Assembly (NCBI RefSeq): GCF_900142725.1
Contig: NZ_FRBW01000003.1
Location: 1-64,000, forward strand
Reading direction: 5' to 3'
Source: Roseibium suaedae
GTDB taxonomy: Bacteria; Pseudomonadota; Alphaproteobacteria; Rhizobiales; Stappiaceae
DNA: 64,000 nucleotides
In this document: piece after piece, positions 3,717 to 10,491 of the stretch
How positions within the stretch are numbered: the first letter of the stretch is position 1
Layout: the number at the start of each line of letters is the position of its first letter
The notes under the pieces: generated by a model
Told to the model about the DNA's origin: nothing
The model's database searches: none
Seen by the model: the letters and a program-made list of their open reading frames with translations, nothing else
Position numbers and translations under genes: made by a program

Positions 3717-4718
<1,002 letters not shown>

Positions 4719-4897
4719 TGAGGCTTTTCTTCAATGCACTGATGATGGTGTCTTTGACGTCAGGCCGCGAAGTTTGATACCCGAACGAAGCCCTTACCTA
4801 GTCCGCTTAAGCAACATCAAACTTGCGTATCATGTTTGGGAACCGTGACAAAAAGGGTGTTCTGGAAGTTTCCAAGACCCAAAACCTGGAGATCTAA

Positions 4898-5320
4898 ATG
4901 ACGGCAAAGTCCCGACCGGCCCCTGATCAGGATGGCTCCCTGGCAAGTATGATTGAATGCCATGGCTTGATCTTGTTCACTGAGAATTATGAAGACTGCG
5001 TGTCTTTCTATCGTTTTAAACTAGGTCTGCCGCTGTGGTACGAGAAAGATGGTCTGACTTGCTTACATTTCGGTGATGGATACCTGATGATTGAGACGGG
5101 CGGGATCGCCCGCAAGTCTCGAAAAACCGTTTCCGAGAACCCGACTGCGATCCGATTTAACGTGCAGGACGTCAAGGCTGCGGCCCAGAGATTGGAAAAG
5201 CAGGGCGTCGACGTACGTATCAATGAGTATAGTTGGGGAACAACTGGCAGCTTCGTTGATCCAGATGGCAATGTTTGCAGTCTAAAGAACGCTGATGATC
5301 CTTACTTCAAAGTTAGCTAA
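4898..5320 (+). CDS. VOC-family (glyoxalase-fold) protein
   Basis: The 140-residue protein has one vicinal-oxygen-chelate module: ILFTENYEDCVSFYRFKLGLPLWYEK at the first strand-helix and SFVDPDGNVCSLKN at the C-terminal strand. The fold covers glyoxalases, dioxygenases and resistance proteins, and the substrate cannot be read from the sequence. It sits between nrdF and a truncated phage-type methyltransferase on what appears to be accessory DNA. Its stop lies only 8 bases before the methyltransferase remnant begins, which suggests a recombination joint at its 3' end. Confidence 0.8.
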   Translation: MTAKSRPAPDQDGSLASMIECHGLILFTENYEDCVSFYRFKLGLPLWYEKDGLTCLHFGDGYLMIETGGIARKSRKTVSENPTAIRFNVQDVKAAAQRLEKQGVDVRINEYSWGTTGSFVDPDGNVCSLKNADDPYFKVS

Positions 5321-5328
5321 AATATAAT

Positions 5329-5964
5329 CAGCCGTTCTCATCCTCCGGAAAGAGGCGGGGCAGGGATGACCCGCGCCATCTCTGGCCGGACGTCGCCAGG
5401 ATCATCAGAGAATGCGATCCCGAATGGGTCTTCTGCGAAAACGTCGAAGGACATCTGGACCGTGGATTTGAAGAGGTCGCCGGGGACTTTCAGGCAATGG
5501 GCTATAGCGTCAACGCGGGATTGTTCTCGGCGGTTGAAGTTGGCGCGGCCCACATCCGGAAGAGGCTCTTCATTCTGGCCCACGCCGACCATAAGCCTCT
5601 ACTGCTGCCGGACGGATGTCCTTATCGATCAGGGAGCGTTTCGTTTCCGGACGGCGACCGATCAGAAGGGCAGCCAGCATTCGATCGGGAATGCCGCAAG
5701 GGTATGGTCGGTGTTCTGGATGACTGCGCAGACCATGGGGCTGAAGCCCTCTCAGGCTCTGATCTCCCGATCTTCGCACCCGCTCCATGTGACCTTGATG
5801 CCTGGAACACGCACCTGTCCCGGGGACTGGACCTTCAACCCGAACTTTTCCGACTGGCTGATGGGCTGGCCAATCGGGTGGAGCGATCCAGGGCAGCCGG
5901 TAACGGGGTTGTCCCGCTGGCTGCAGCGCATGCGTGGCGAAATCTCAAGGCTGAGCATGTTTAG
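5329..5964 (+). pseudogene. N-terminally truncated phage-type C5 DNA methyltransferase
   Basis: The open frame begins QPFSSSGKRRGRDDPRHLWP, exactly where motif IV (PCQPFS) of a cytosine-5 DNA methyltransferase would be cut after its Cys. It continues with WVFCENVEGH (motif VI, ENV), VEVGAAHIRKRLFILA (motif VIII) and RVERSRAAGNGVVPLAAAHAW (motifs IX-X). Motifs I-III and the catalytic Cys are missing, and no start codon or RBS precedes the homologous part. About 210 codons of undisturbed frame remain, so the truncation looks recent or the remnant is untranslated. The combination of motifs resembles methyltransferases in alphaproteobacterial prophages. The product cannot be an active methyltransferase. 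Confidence 0.8.
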
Positions 5965-6188
5965 ATGCGGTAGCTGACGGCTCCTTGCTGCCGTTAAGAT
6001 CTTGGCTGACCCACTTCCGCCTAGCGTCGCCCACGCAGTCGTTTACCGGCTGATGCGGATTTCCTGAAAGCGGTCAGACCATTCGGCAGGAATTGATTCG
6101 GCGGCCACCTGCGTTGCTAGTCGAATCACAAGAAAACGTGCATAAGTTTCCAGTTTTTCGATCGGCTAAAGTAGATTCAGTAGACAAC

Positions 6189-7289
6189 ATGGCGAAGGCG
6201 AAAAAAAACAAATCGATCAGTGAAGAGGCGAAGCTTGCAGCGGAGCAGGCCGTCATCGCCATCTCGAGGCAGGTAAAATTCAACGTCGCGGAATATCCGG
6301 TATCGATGTACGTGAGCAGGTTCAAGGATGATGTTAGCGATCGATATTTCGTTCCGGAATACCAGCGCAATTTGGCCTGGAACGACGAGCAGAAGTCTCA
6401 GTTTGTGGAATCGTTGTTGGTCGGCCTCCCGATCCCGTTCATGTTTTTCTATCAGACCCCAGAAGGACGCATGGAAATCGTGGACGGTTCGCAGCGCATG
6501 CGCGCGATGCGTTCGTTTTTGAAGGAAGGTCTGCGGCTCAGCGATCTGGTATTGGTACCCGAACTCAATGGCTTTTCGTTTTCCGATCTACCTAGCGATC
6601 GGCAGAATAAGCTCGAAGATATCACGATCCGCACGATCCTACTTGATACGGACACCGATCCGGCGACACGCGCGGAGATGTTCGCGCGCATCAACAGGAC
6701 GGGTACGATGGCCAATGAGGCGGAGATACGCAGGGGCTCGCTCCCAGGTCCTGTTACTAGCCTGATCCAGGAGCTTGCCGAGTCGGCTCAGTTCGTTGAG
6801 GCCACACCTCTTACCGAAAAGGCTGTCGCGCAGCGCGAGCGTGAGGAACTGGTGACGCGGTTCTTCGCTTACCTCAACAGGAACGACACACCGGATGGCC
6901 GCTTTCCGGGATACCGCGACCGGCCGAAGAAATTCCTGTACGACTATCTAAAGGAGGCGAACACGGCAGCCACGGCCGATCCTACGATCGTACCCGCGAT
7001 GCGGGAGGAATTCGTACGAATGCTAAATTTGGTCTCGGCTTCTTTTCCGCTCGGCTTTCGCAAGACCAAGACCGCGAACACGGTGCCGCGCGTCCGGTTC
7101 GAAGCGATCGCTGTCGGCTCAGCACTTGCGTTGCGGCAAGACCCCGACGTAGTCGTCGCGCCAGAGGTGGTTGCGGACCGGATGGTCGCAGCAAACTTCG
7201 ACAAAATCGTCGTGTCCGATGGAGCGAACGTGCGCTCTAAACTCGAGGGGAGGATCGATCTCGGCCGGTCGCTCCTGATCGACGAATGA
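6189..7289 (+). CDS. DUF262 (ParB/GmrS-like) protein of a putative defence operon
   Basis: The 366-residue product carries the DUF262 signatures VPEYQRNLAWNDEQ (EYQRNLAW at 57-64) and EIVDGSQRMRAM (DGSQR at 99-103), then MFARINRTGT. DUF262 is the ParB-like nucleotide-binding/nuclease fold of the type IV restriction protein GmrSD, where the DGQQR-like motif is part of the active site. I chose the ATG at 189 bases past 6000 (MAKAKKNK); the frame extends further upstream but without a good start. Its stop overlaps the next gene's start in ATGA, so the three genes form one unit. The ParB-like fold suggests NTP-dependent DNA processing; the target is unknown. Confidence 0.82.
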   Translation: MAKAKKNKSISEEAKLAAEQAVIAISRQVKFNVAEYPVSMYVSRFKDDVSDRYFVPEYQRNLAWNDEQKSQFVESLLVGLPIPFMFFYQTPEGRMEIVDGSQRMRAMRSFLKEGLRLSDLVLVPELNGFSFSDLPSDRQNKLEDITIRTILLDTDTDPATRAEMFARINRTGTMANEAEIRRGSLPGPVTSLIQELAESAQFVEATPLTEKAVAQREREELVTRFFAYLNRNDTPDGRFPGYRDRPKKFLYDYLKEANTAATADPTIVPAMREEFVRMLNLVSASFPLGFRKTKTANTVPRVRFEAIAVGSALALRQDPDVVVAPEVVADRMVAANFDKIVVSDGANVRSKLEGRIDLGRSLLIDE

Positions 7290-7999
7290 CAGATCTACAT
7301 GCGACCCTTGCCGAACGTAGGCAGGAATTCGAGGGCCACCTTGCATTCGCGGCTGCACTCGACCGACGCCTGATTGAGGGGGACACAATCTCAATCGGCG
7401 AGATGGCCCTGTCGGCACGGCACCTCTTGACGATCAAGTCGGGCCTCATCGTCCATCTCTACAACGTTGTTGAAGCGACGATGACGAAGGTAATCGAAGA
7501 GATCGGCAAGGAAGTGTTAGCGGTTCCACCATCACAGTGGTCGCACATCACCGTCAAGGAATGGCTTCGTCACTATGCTGCGATCGGCGTGGATGGAAAC
7601 GAACACACGAGGCTTGAGGTCGTCCATGGAGCGGCATTAAAACTCCTTGCTAGGGAGCCAATCGAGCACTCTAAATTCAAGAAGCCCTCCGGCACCTGGT
7701 CCGACAAGGTCATCCTGGAGTTCTCTCGACGGCTTGGCGTGAACTTTCCGCTCAATGCGCAGATTGCACCGCGCATCCAGCCATCGCCGAAATACAGGGA
7801 TATGACGCCTTTGGAATTCCTCGCCGATCGAAGAAACGCTATCGCGCATGGGCGGCGTACGTTCGAGAACGGTGCGAACGACCTTACGCTGCCCGCGATT
7901 GCAGAGCTCGCTTCAGTGTCCCTCGACTATCTGGTGCTGGCGGTGACGGCGTTCGAAAACTATATTGTCCAGAAACAATTCAAAACAGCCGATGCATAA
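7286..7999 (+). CDS. MAE_28990/MAE_18760-type HEPN putative nuclease
   Basis: This 237-residue, mostly helical protein has the motif RRNAIAHG at 182-189, with R183 and H188 forming the R-x4-H site typical of HEPN ribonucleases. The N-terminus (LTIKSGLIVHLYNVVEATMTKVIEEI) matches the pattern I associate with MAE_28990/MAE_18760-type HEPN proteins, which comparative genomics links to DUF262 and restriction-modification genes. It overlaps the DUF262 gene by 4 bases and the methyltransferase by 8. The likely role is a toxic effector, perhaps RNA-cleaving, restrained or triggered by its partners. Family assignment is by motif and context; activity is inferred. Confidence 0.75.
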   Translation: MTDLHATLAERRQEFEGHLAFAAALDRRLIEGDTISIGEMALSARHLLTIKSGLIVHLYNVVEATMTKVIEEIGKEVLAVPPSQWSHITVKEWLRHYAAIGVDGNEHTRLEVVHGAALKLLAREPIEHSKFKKPSGTWSDKVILEFSRRLGVNFPLNAQIAPRIQPSPKYRDMTPLEFLADRRNAIAHGRRTFENGANDLTLPAIAELASVSLDYLVLAVTAFENYIVQKQFKTADA

Positions 8000-9074
8000 A
8001 GTAGAGCAACCAATAATTGTAGCGGTCGACCTCTTCTGCGGAGTAGGGGGGCTCACCTATGGCCTGCAATCGTCTGGCATCGCGGTGAAACTCGGCGTCG
8101 ATATTGATCCCGACTGCGCCTATGCCATAGAGCATAATTCCGGCGCGACTTTCCTGGAGGCCGACGTCGCTTCGCTTGATGAAGGGATCATTACCGGCGC
8201 GTTCGAGAACGCGGAAGTCAGTCTCCTGGCGGGATGTGCTCCATGTCAACCCTTCTCGACATATTCCCGCGCGGCGAAGCAGAAACACGGTGATGCGGCG
8301 GGAGAGAACCGCAGCAAGGATTGGCGCCTTGTGGAGCACTTCGCCAATCTTGTCGAGCGAGTCCAACCGGATCTGGTGACGATGGAGAACGTGCCTCCCT
8401 TGGCGCAGCAACCCGTTTTTGGGCTGCTCCTAGAGAAGCTTCAAGGGTATTGGGTGGATTGGCGGATCGTAGAGTGTCAGGCAATCGGCCTTCCTCAAAC
8501 TCGGAAGCGCCTCGTGCTTGTCGCGTCCCGGCTCGGGCCAATTGCCATTCCCGATTTCGAGAAACCTATCCTGACGGTCCGCGCTGTGATCTCAGAGCTT
8601 CCAGAACTGGAAGCCGGGGGACAGGATCCCAATGATCCGCTGCATCGCGCGAGCAAGCTGAGTGCCGTAAATCTGGCAAGAATACGCCACTCGAAGCCGG
8701 GGGGGACATGGCGCGACTGGCCGGAGGACCTAAGGTCCTCGTGTCATCTTAAAGAGACCGGAGCAACTTATCCGTCGGTGTATGGAAGGATGCAGTGGGA
8801 TAAGCCTGCGCCAACCATCACAACCCAGTGTTTCGGTTACGGCAACGGTCGATTTGGCCACCCAGAGCAGGATCGGGCTATCAGTCTGCGAGAAGCGTCG
8901 ATGCTCCAAGGCTTTCCCAAGGACTACTCGTTCCTACCGAACGAGAAAAGCGCAAGCTTCGACAAGCTCGGCCGTTTGATCGGCAATGCGGTTCCGGTCA
9001 AGCTTGGACAAGTCATTGGCGAATTGTTCTCGGACCATGTCGCTAAAATTCGCCTGCACAGGTTAAAGCATTGA
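7992..9074 (+). CDS. C5-cytosine DNA methyltransferase
   Basis: The 360-residue protein has the full motif set: VDLFCGVGGLTYGL (motif I, residues 12-25), PCQPFS with catalytic Cys85 (IV), MENVPPLA (VI, Glu132), PQTRKRLVLVAS (VIII) and GRLIGNAVPVKLG (X, GNAVP at 331-335). A target-recognition region of roughly 100 residues lies between VIII and IX. It should methylate cytosine in a specific DNA sequence that cannot be predicted here. The ATG at 7992 overlaps the HEPN stop; an in-frame TTG at 7965 would add nine residues. No separate restriction endonuclease gene is present, so DUF262/HEPN may provide the restricting activity. Confidence 0.92.
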   Translation: MHKVEQPIIVAVDLFCGVGGLTYGLQSSGIAVKLGVDIDPDCAYAIEHNSGATFLEADVASLDEGIITGAFENAEVSLLAGCAPCQPFSTYSRAAKQKHGDAAGENRSKDWRLVEHFANLVERVQPDLVTMENVPPLAQQPVFGLLLEKLQGYWVDWRIVECQAIGLPQTRKRLVLVASRLGPIAIPDFEKPILTVRAVISELPELEAGGQDPNDPLHRASKLSAVNLARIRHSKPGGTWRDWPEDLRSSCHLKETGATYPSVYGRMQWDKPAPTITTQCFGYGNGRFGHPEQDRAISLREASMLQGFPKDYSFLPNEKSASFDKLGRLIGNAVPVKLGQVIGELFSDHVAKIRLHRLKH

Positions 9075-9667
9075 CGTGGTGCCGCAGGCTCGTCCCATGG
9101 TCTTCAAGTCTGAGCTGCTTTTCCGTGTTTTACGTTTCCTTTATCTGAAAAGGAGTGGAAGATCCCCGAGCATGGGCCATGGCTAATAGCGAAAACACCG
9201 TTCACACCGTGCGCGGTTTCCAGGCCGCAAGCGCGTCAAAGATGTTCAAACGTATGCCACACACAAATTTCCTGACAGTCCCGCCAACCATGTTGTTAGT
9301 TCTTTCAAAGCCAGTTCACTAGACCCTGATTCCTTAGACCAGACAGTCTGCAAAAGGCCTCTTTCGGTAATTAGTTCCGACCACAGCGAACGTCCGCTCT
9401 CCGCCGTGTCTAGACCTTGGAGCAGAGCGTATCGAACGGTCGAATACGGAAGCTGAGGGCGCAAAGCAGCCGGATGATAGAGCTGGAAACCCAACTCTGC
9501 CTCTCAATGCTTTAGTTTGAAACTGGGTGCCAAGTGAAGTTGCGCGCTACACTTTGTGGCCCAGAATGTGACCCATTTTGTGACCCAGTGTGCAGATTTT
9601 TGAGCCTAAGGTGCAGGCGCTTTCTGCAAAAATCACTTTAAAATCAATAATTTAAAGGAAAAACGAG
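9075..9667. other. Non-coding junction between defence operon and tRNA-Ser
   Basis: I see no convincing gene in this stretch. An antisense open frame of 82 codons (9246-9494) has no recognisable domain or RBS. The last 110 bases hold three short direct repeats (listed separately) and an A/T-rich run just before the tRNA 3' end. No integrase could be traced in any frame. Confidence 0.6.
9555..9587. repeat. Three 9-bp direct repeats with 12-bp period
   Basis: TGTGGCCCA (9555), TGTGACCCA (9567) and TGTGACCCA (9579) are spaced exactly 12 bases apart, with the first copy differing at one base. They lie about 80 bases from the 3' end of tRNA-Ser, on the island side. Such repeats may be recombinase arm-type or protein-binding sites, but they could be the relic of an older coding sequence. 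Confidence 0.5.
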
Positions 9668-9757
9668 TGGCGGATGGGGTGGGATTCGAACCCACGGAAC
9701 GCTTCCACGCTCGGCGGTTTTCAAGACCGCTGCCTTAAACCACTCGGCCACCCATCC
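9668..9757 (-). tRNA. tRNA-Ser (anticodon UGA)
   Basis: Read on the minus strand, the sequence folds as a class II tRNA. The acceptor stem is GGATGGG/CCCATCC, the D-arm contains GCCGAGTGG, the anticodon loop is CTTGAAA with anticodon TGA, the variable arm is long, and the T-arm carries GGTTCGAATCC. The CCA end is encoded (TGG on the plus strand at 9668-9670). The long variable arm and UGA anticodon identify serine. Its 3' end faces the accessory DNA, the orientation usual for an integration site. Confidence 0.97.
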
Positions 9758-10491
9758 GTTGCCTTCCGTTTCATATCTTGTGAGCGGCTTGTCAAGCACT
9801 TGCGGGCAAAGAGCTGCAATTCCTGACAGAAATCCCCGGAAGGGCTGCCCAAAAGAAAACAGCTCCCGGGATCCTGGGCTGTGGATCCGGGGAGCTGAGC
9901 GAAGGCTGCTGGTTCCCATTCATGGTGGGCAGGGTTGAGAACCAGCAGCTCTAGCCGGTGTGGCCGGCGGTCTTCGGGAGTGGGCTGCCCCGTCGACAGA
10001 AACAACTCTAGGAGGCGGAGAGATTCTCGACTGTGACCTGCGTCACACCTTTGCGCCTTGTCAGTTTTGCCATGGCGTTTCCCGCTGCGGCGATCTGTCC
10101 CTGCCAGTGAAACGGGCGCCAAGGCACTTTCAGGTGAGGCTTGAAAGACCCGGAAAATGCGGAAATTCGTGCGGTTTTTCAGGTGGCTTGAGGGGAGGCG
10201 GGGGCAAAATCCTGCCGGGCGGTCAAAGGCCTCTCGACGGGATGTTCATGATGGGTTAATGAGTTTGATATCTACATGATTGCTGTGCGCTCTAGCGGGG
10301 GCTGGGTGCATTGCCAGTGTGGGATGTCCAAAGACATTTTCCGGAGCTTCCGGAGGTCAGATTCAGCAGTCGAGGCGCGTCACGGACGCGCGGCCTGACT
10401 GGGCAGGGATGTTCTGGTGTCTGGCAGCAGGAAGCATGTGTTTGAATGCGTGTGCATGGGGCCGCCAGCGCGTACGAGGTAGGACGGCAGA
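9758..10491. other. Long intergenic region upstream of rlpA
   Basis: About 730 bases lie between the tRNA and rlpA. Several short frames are open but lack recognisable domains and convincing RBSs. The tRNA-Ser promoter and the rlpA promoter must both lie here; I could not identify either with confidence. Confidence 0.5.

Follow-up and report, generated by a model that had tools for sequence, protein, structure and literature searches.

A mobile DUF262-HEPN-C5 methyltransferase cassette of Roseibium suaedae as a candidate restriction-modification-like defence system

The cassette and its described relatives

The MAE_28990-type HEPN proteins were tabulated by Anantharaman 2013 as being 'In operon with a ParB nuclease and DNA methylase genes' (Table 1 of that paper, PMC3710099), an entry of one line that gives no test. 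Apparently the same association, namely a PF18737 HEPN protein, a ParB-superfamily (DUF262) partner and a DNA methylase in one operon, is encoded in a 64,000-nucleotide stretch of Roseibium suaedae DNA (contig NZ_FRBW01000003.1, positions 1 to 64,000; hereafter the window), where a C5-cytosine DNA methyltransferase (MTase) gene follows the DUF262 and HEPN genes (Table 1). We propose, at a rough probability of 0.57, that this cassette is a compact and mobile restriction-modification (R-M)-like anti-phage system, in which the MTase would mark self DNA, the DUF262 protein sense and the HEPN protein act as effector. The proposal builds on the linkage, motif conservation, co-variation and mobility of the genes, on a conserved target-recognition region (TRD) of the MTase and on the location of this MTase family next to further effectors as well, all read from sequence comparison. 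The triad had been called under-described in a preliminary description of this DNA; it is indeed conserved, mobile and with its motifs kept, but it is not unreported, since the association is already in print as that one table line (PMC3710099), to which the present analysis adds the TRD, the sharing of the MTase, an MTase-less clade and the spread of the family. In the open-licence literature we found in print neither the conserved TRD, nor the MTase sharing with paraMORC and DISARM, nor the MTase-less clade, nor a published test of the triad, which may exist elsewhere. The main text of a study on GmrSD clusters in Enterobacteria (PMC12373910) contains no HEPN or methyltransferase, and the triad was not found in passages of a BREX paper (PMC12839542); DefensePredictor (PMC13092281) comprises four validated HEPN systems, with the partners given in its figures, and may overlap with the triad.

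All three reading frames are intact, the DUF262 and HEPN genes overlapping by 4 bases (ATGA) and the HEPN and MTase genes by 8, and their motifs are as follows: EYQRN at 57-61 and DGSQR at 99-103 (D99-G100-S101-Q102-R103) in the DUF262 protein, R183-x4-H188 in the HEPN protein, and PCQ with Cys85, MENV, QTRKR and GNAV as the intact catalytic motifs of the MTase. By Pfam searches, GmrSD_N (PF03235, E=1.4e-22) was the sole family above cut-off in the DUF262 protein; the HEPN protein matched PF18737 (E=1.7e-6, 28.8 bits versus a cut-off of 26.8), as did 43/43 family members, and the MTase matched PF00145 (E=2.6e-44). The structure models of the DUF262 and HEPN proteins had pLDDT (predicted local distance difference test) values of 91.5 and 92.1, respectively. 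Searching PADLOC, only RTasHEPN matched the HEPN protein, weakly (0.0025), and the MTase matched DrmMII (PDLC02651, 2.4e-81). No restriction endonuclease family was detected in the three proteins by Pfam and NCBIfam, nor a DUF1524/HNH nuclease domain by Pfam up to E=1, in line with the earlier statement that a standard restriction endonuclease is missing, although the PADLOC REase_II profile did match the DUF262 protein (see below).

The best PADLOC match of the DUF262 protein was NsnA (1.8e-53), which we take to be the DUF262 protein of Menshen, followed by PD-T4-2_A (2.1e-25), and each of the two profiles matched 43/43 DUF262 members. The cassette differs from Menshen, whose partner is a predicted OLD nuclease (PMC10952713), in carrying HEPN and MTase genes and no AAA/OLD-type partner. 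PD-T4-2 (Vassallo et al. 2022), a DUF262 plus HEPN pair, is a proven anti-T4 system (PMC9519451, PMC10952713); however, its HEPN belongs to PF18735 (PMC10952713) and not PF18737, and its HEPN profile PD-T4-2_B matched just one of the 43 family members (E 0.018), not the window HEPN (at 0.1) and none of the HEPNs of four MTase-less loci described below (at 0.01). PD-T4-2 was therefore rejected as the family name, its HEPN subunit being without a match. The type IV systems GmrSD and BrxU share a DUF262 domain with the DGxQR motif, and BrxU (E 4e-3) and ParB were the best PDB neighbours of the DUF262 structure model, none below 1e-3; the nuclease of GmrSD, BrxU and SspE, however, resides in a DUF1524 domain of its own (PMC10952713), whereas here the partner is HEPN and a self MTase is present. 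DISARM (DrmMII) and the paraMORC R-M systems (Iyer 2008, PMC2292703) employ the same C5 MTase family, yet with a helicase complex or a GHKL ATPase as effector rather than DUF262-HEPN, and type II R-M systems are alike in having a DNA methyltransferase with intact catalytic motifs. As a side observation, a Klebsiella plasmid (L295:3827-5987) carries a DUF262 gene with an AAA_15/AAA_21 ATPase, apparently Menshen-like; the plasmid records matching DUF262 number 227, and 84 of them, two of which were read, come from Klebsiella.

Linkage, co-variation and a proposed mechanism

Co-occurrence was assessed with profiles built from 12 DUF262, 12 HEPN and 10 MTase sequences, taken from the window and eleven plasmid or phage loci, and 189 loci were scanned. 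Among them, 171 (L019-L189) had been collected by DUF262 similarity: 11 from plasmids and phages (opened out of 248 matching records), 80 on genome contigs (the best 80 of 232) and 80 on viral contigs (the best 80 of 96); for the eleven a match is built in, unlike for the other 160. A HEPN gene was located downstream of the DUF262 gene on the same strand and within about 130 bases in 171/171 loci, and the two were never apart among the loci scanned, a linkage far beyond chance. The same MTase family adjoined the pair in 154/171 loci, while the remaining 17 had a different C5 MTase (8), a frameshifted one (1, L121), a contig end (4) or none found (4). According to the tree listing, triads on genome contigs occur in nine phyla, i.e. 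Pseudomonadota, Actinomycetota, Cyanobacteriota, Bacteroidota, Bacillota, Verrucomicrobiota, Planctomycetota, Acidobacteriota and Campylobacterota. So the three families do co-occur elsewhere, but the gene order varies: in 110 non-redundant triads (left from 149 loci and the window after clustering at 90% DUF262 identity), the MTase gene was downstream on the same strand in 38, downstream on the opposite strand in 60 and upstream in 12, indicating that the linkage survives rearrangement. The family is rare; in a sample of 398 genomes of the phylum the DUF262 profile matched 32 at 1e-40, three of which (the window's own included) exceeded 400 bits, with the next at 198.

Across the 110 triads, median pairwise identities were 41% for DUF262, 24% for HEPN and 53% for the MTase. 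The identities of DUF262 and HEPN were correlated with a Pearson coefficient of 0.91 (Spearman 0.78), those of DUF262 and MTase with 0.59 (0.34), and those of HEPN and MTase with 0.65 (0.44), which points to the DUF262-HEPN pair as a faster-evolving unit and the MTase as a slow one. Residues invariant in 110/110 triads were P56, Y58-R60, D99, G100, Q102, R103, R167, N169 and E305 in DUF262, with S101 being variable, and Y59, E63, R183, H188 and G189 in HEPN. A Vsr-like open reading frame (ORF) was present in 19 of the 189 loci scanned, at most 206 bp from the MTase gene in 9, as would be expected beside a lasting 5-methylcytosine mark.

Because the pair was never apart here and co-varies, HEPN would be a partner dedicated to DUF262. 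In the mechanism that we propose, the C5 MTase would write 5-methylcytosine at a fixed sequence on the host chromosome, an activity suggested by its motifs and a fixed sequence suggested by its TRD; DUF262, as a ParB/Srx-like nucleoside triphosphate (NTP)-binding protein, would scan DNA and be restrained by marked DNA. On meeting unmarked or wrongly modified incoming DNA, DUF262 would use NTP and activate HEPN, which, judging by the R-x4-H motif and known HEPN enzymes, may cut host or phage RNA and so stop phage growth. If this is right, the table-line association would become a defined, testable system with DUF262 as proposed sensor and HEPN as proposed effector, and self/non-self discrimination by a GmrS-like DUF262 protein could be tested through adding or removing one MTase.

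The tested relatives point in different directions on the mechanism: GmrSD and BrxU attack modified cytosine (PMC10952713), the DISARM ATPase is reduced by 5-methylcytosine (PMC9142583), and the ParB/Srx superfamily is said, with other work cited, to nick single-stranded DNA, ATP acting as a negative switch (PMC12839542). The nicking supports a nuclease activity in this superfamily, which slightly lowers the probability of the mechanism proposed above and raises that of a two-tier R-M system, in which DUF262 itself would be a DNA nuclease on unmethylated sites and HEPN a PrrC-like reserve RNase for when the first tier is blocked. Such a system also accords with the name 'ParB nuclease' and with the view, drawn by analogy to PrrC, that HEPN proteins in R-M loci serve as a second line (Anantharaman 2013, PMC3710099), and the PADLOC REase_II profile matched the window DUF262 protein (4.1e-11) and 42/43 DUF262 members. 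But GmrSD_N alone passed the Pfam cut-off in that protein, the separate DUF1524 nuclease of GmrSD, BrxU and SspE was not found in the cassette proteins, and the presence of both genes in 171/171 loci, the MTase-less ones included, fits one machine better than an optional backup, so we regard two tiers as unlikely.

Target recognition, sharing, replacement and possible loss of the methyltransferase

C5 methyltransferases carry their DNA specificity between motifs VIII and IX, and the TRD of this MTase, at about residues 180-297, is a single region conserved in the family. Compared with the catalytic core, the TRD of the triad MTases had a higher share of majority residues (74% versus 62%) and a higher median pairwise identity (0.65 versus 0.50), and its identity exceeded that of the core in 96% of 900 sampled pairs. 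For 149 triad-MTase pairs having a core identity of 35-45%, the TRD median was 0.59 and above the core in all, while for 235 pairs of control C5 MTases (n=34) in the same range it was 0.25 and above the core in none; a first, small control of 6 enzymes (15 pairs) gave 0.26 for the TRD at a core of 0.38. The contrast rests on this low-identity range, because control pairs at higher core identity often had the TRD above the core (45-55%, n=35, TRD median 0.51, 51% of pairs; 55-70%, n=108, 0.62, 61%), indicating that isospecific clades keep their TRD; some of the 34 controls belong to clades each retrieved with one query, and there the TRD is kept, and from the larger control 50 of 238 profile-matching ORFs (of the family and others) were dropped as not splittable by the motif rule. 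Judged from these alignments, a single TRD type is common to the triad MTases across a range of divergence in which other enzymes changed theirs, and since the TRD is more conserved than the core, their DNA target is probably single and fixed. The profile of the family matched 3me5, the structure of a 482-aa cytosine MTase that is presumably Dcm, in the catalytic part only. CCWGG as the target is kept as a lead: a review states that DISARM modifies CCWGG (PMC11676413), but two MTases of Serratia DISARM were given other motifs (PMC9142583), and more than one DrmMII could be the kin of the window MTase.

Beyond the triads, the same MTase family also adjoins paraMORC-type (GHKL) ATPases and DISARM genes (the latter in L324 and L327), and several of these loci also have Vsr; they are best matches to the window MTase, 12 of which were read, 7 of the 18 plasmid rows of at least 42% identity staying unopened. 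Near the window MTase itself, no DrmA/DrmB core was seen by eye, without a profile scan, the longest ORF in 1-16 kb being a ribonucleotide reductase-like one of 716 aa. Together with the fixed TRD, the presence of one MTase family beside DUF262-HEPN, paraMORC and DISARM suggests a common self-mark across immune systems. If so, different systems should cross-protect, and it would be understandable that phages and plasmids carry such MTases. Tentatively, as an idea somewhat less probable than its opposite, we put forward that several unrelated immune effectors identify self by one conserved cytosine mark; a fixed-specificity MTase family would then have been exchanged among DUF262-HEPN, paraMORC and DISARM in both Bacteria and Archaea, including at one and the same P2 prophage site. 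The effectors would in that case act as interchangeable readers of a single mark, in contrast to R-M systems, whose diversity comes from changes of target, and an MTase-less DUF262-HEPN lineage would have switched its criterion of self and non-self. On a haloarchaeal plasmid, the MTase-ATPase pair has genes for a nucleotide cyclase and a Pycsar-type effector in its vicinity (L323:1415-2675).

Four DUF262-HEPN pairs had no C5 MTase in the fetched flanks, namely L027 (an E. coli plasmid, with insertion sequences behind the pair), L102, L187 and L188; the family profile and visual inspection covered 5-6 kb, and a very distant or N6 enzyme may have escaped them. All four kept the R-x4-H motif intact and had flanks on both sides, and their DUF262 proteins formed one supported group (Shimodaira-Hasegawa-like approximate likelihood ratio test, SH-aLRT, 97) inside the tree as drawn, a clade of four rows, one long-branched, in a tree rooted by midpoint only. 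The loci with a different C5 MTase were scattered, altB requiring 2 and altC 3 changes (7/8 placed; the DUF262 tree omits L098, which resembles L096), and by eye altB MTases have a similar TRD and altC MTases do not. One loss and several replacements would be expected if the pair normally needs a cytosine mark and one lineage was freed; given the midpoint root, the reverse order may also hold. An idea that MTase-less pairs occur only in Dcm+ hosts was dropped, the clade containing an Aquimarina locus and viral contigs with no host assigned. The contig L188 has a second, short DUF262-like ORF (7842-8354) convergent to its MTase-less pair. In L086, L096, L098, L105 and L185 the pair stands with a quite different C5 MTase having a C-terminal extension. 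In a Sinorhizobium plasmid (L328), the neighbours of a relative are a DEAD/DEAH helicase, Vsr and the mobile mystery proteins A/B.

The cytosines of phage T4, which PD-T4-2 stops, are modified, and the MTase-less clade exists, both of which suit a type IV-like pair that attacks foreign modified cytosines as GmrSD does, with the MTase a passenger or an anti-restriction gene. Tested DUF262 relatives recognise modified cytosine as well (PMC10952713). A passenger, however, would hardly stay linked in 154/171 loci through three gene orders, nor would other C5 MTases be expected to take its place in 8, which makes this explanation highly improbable.

Triads are carried by conjugative, mobilizable and other plasmids, Moraxella phages, a P2-like phage and prophages. 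HEPN enzymes are toxins in HEPN-MNT modules, and such frequent carriage by plasmids and prophages would also be in keeping with addiction, i.e. a DUF262-HEPN toxin pair whose MTase antidote acts via host methylation and stabilises the element, with defence secondary. We consider this quite improbable, as four pairs without a found MTase retain an intact R-x4-H and are flanked on both sides, and the MTase gene is often on the opposite strand, although sequence can hardly distinguish R-M logic from addiction. The P2-phage-type DUF262-HEPN pair was present in 7 of 5,426 E. coli genomes; both of the two genomes read have it inside a P2-like prophage, flanked by the portal and replication endonuclease genes, and the annotation shows a full-length MTase. 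A supposed rule of 'P24B2 with a broken MTase' was dropped, because the MTase is split in the P24B2 record, but in E. coli 181.1 and 1002W03 the gene at this site is annotated as full-length. Eight E. coli plasmid records contain the full DUF262-HEPN pair, and the two that were read (L027/L296) have no MTase annotated, adjoining insertion sequences, and resistance genes.

Genomic site of the window cassette

Table 1. Coordinates of the cassette and neighbouring features in the window
Feature	Position	Strand	Remarks
DUF262 gene (GmrSD_N, ParB/Srx-like), 366 aa	6189-7289	+	PF03235; predicted NTP-binding sensor/regulator
HEPN gene, MAE_28990-type, 237 aa	7286-7999	+	PF18737; predicted ribonuclease effector
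C5-cytosine DNA methyltransferase (MTase) gene, 360 aa	ATG 7992 to 9074	+	PF00145
Cassette, DNA-similar stretch	6188-9047	+	blastn versus Rhizobium tumorigenes pTi932 triad, 75%
Second C5 MTase, remnant split over two frames, directly upstream of cassette	5329-5964	+	PF00145 fragment 5329-5595
tRNA-Ser(tga)	9668-9757	-	cassette lies beside

Within window positions 4701-9800, blastn (E up to 1e-3) detected DNA similarity to the pTi932 triad locus in the tabulated stretch only, and to an Ensifer triad locus only in 6222-9043 (74%). Since the similarity is limited to the three genes, the cassette behaves as one unit. As for the neighbours, the tRNA gene named in the preliminary description was found, whereas its 'phage remnants' came down to just the one broken second C5 MTase. 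No other intact C5 MTase was detected in the genome (5.14 Mb, 14 contigs) with PF00145, which found only the fragment in the remnant.

Similarity to the nearest relative at this site (G029) starts at 9666, the 3' end of tRNA-Ser(tga), and continues onwards, and at this place G029 carries a DarT gene (PF14487, 1.4e-55) and a macrodomain (DarG-like) gene (L317:11361-13129); in this genus, tRNA-Ser(tga) thus seems to be a place where cargo is inserted. The 84-base tail of the MTase remnant (5872-5955) is common to the window and G029, which suggests that the remnant may predate the cargo exchange. Reading the ORF list of window 1-16 kb by eye, no integrase was seen. In the genus member G014, an ORF named by eye as tyrosine recombinase-like directly adjoins the same tRNA-Ser (L318:2767-4107).

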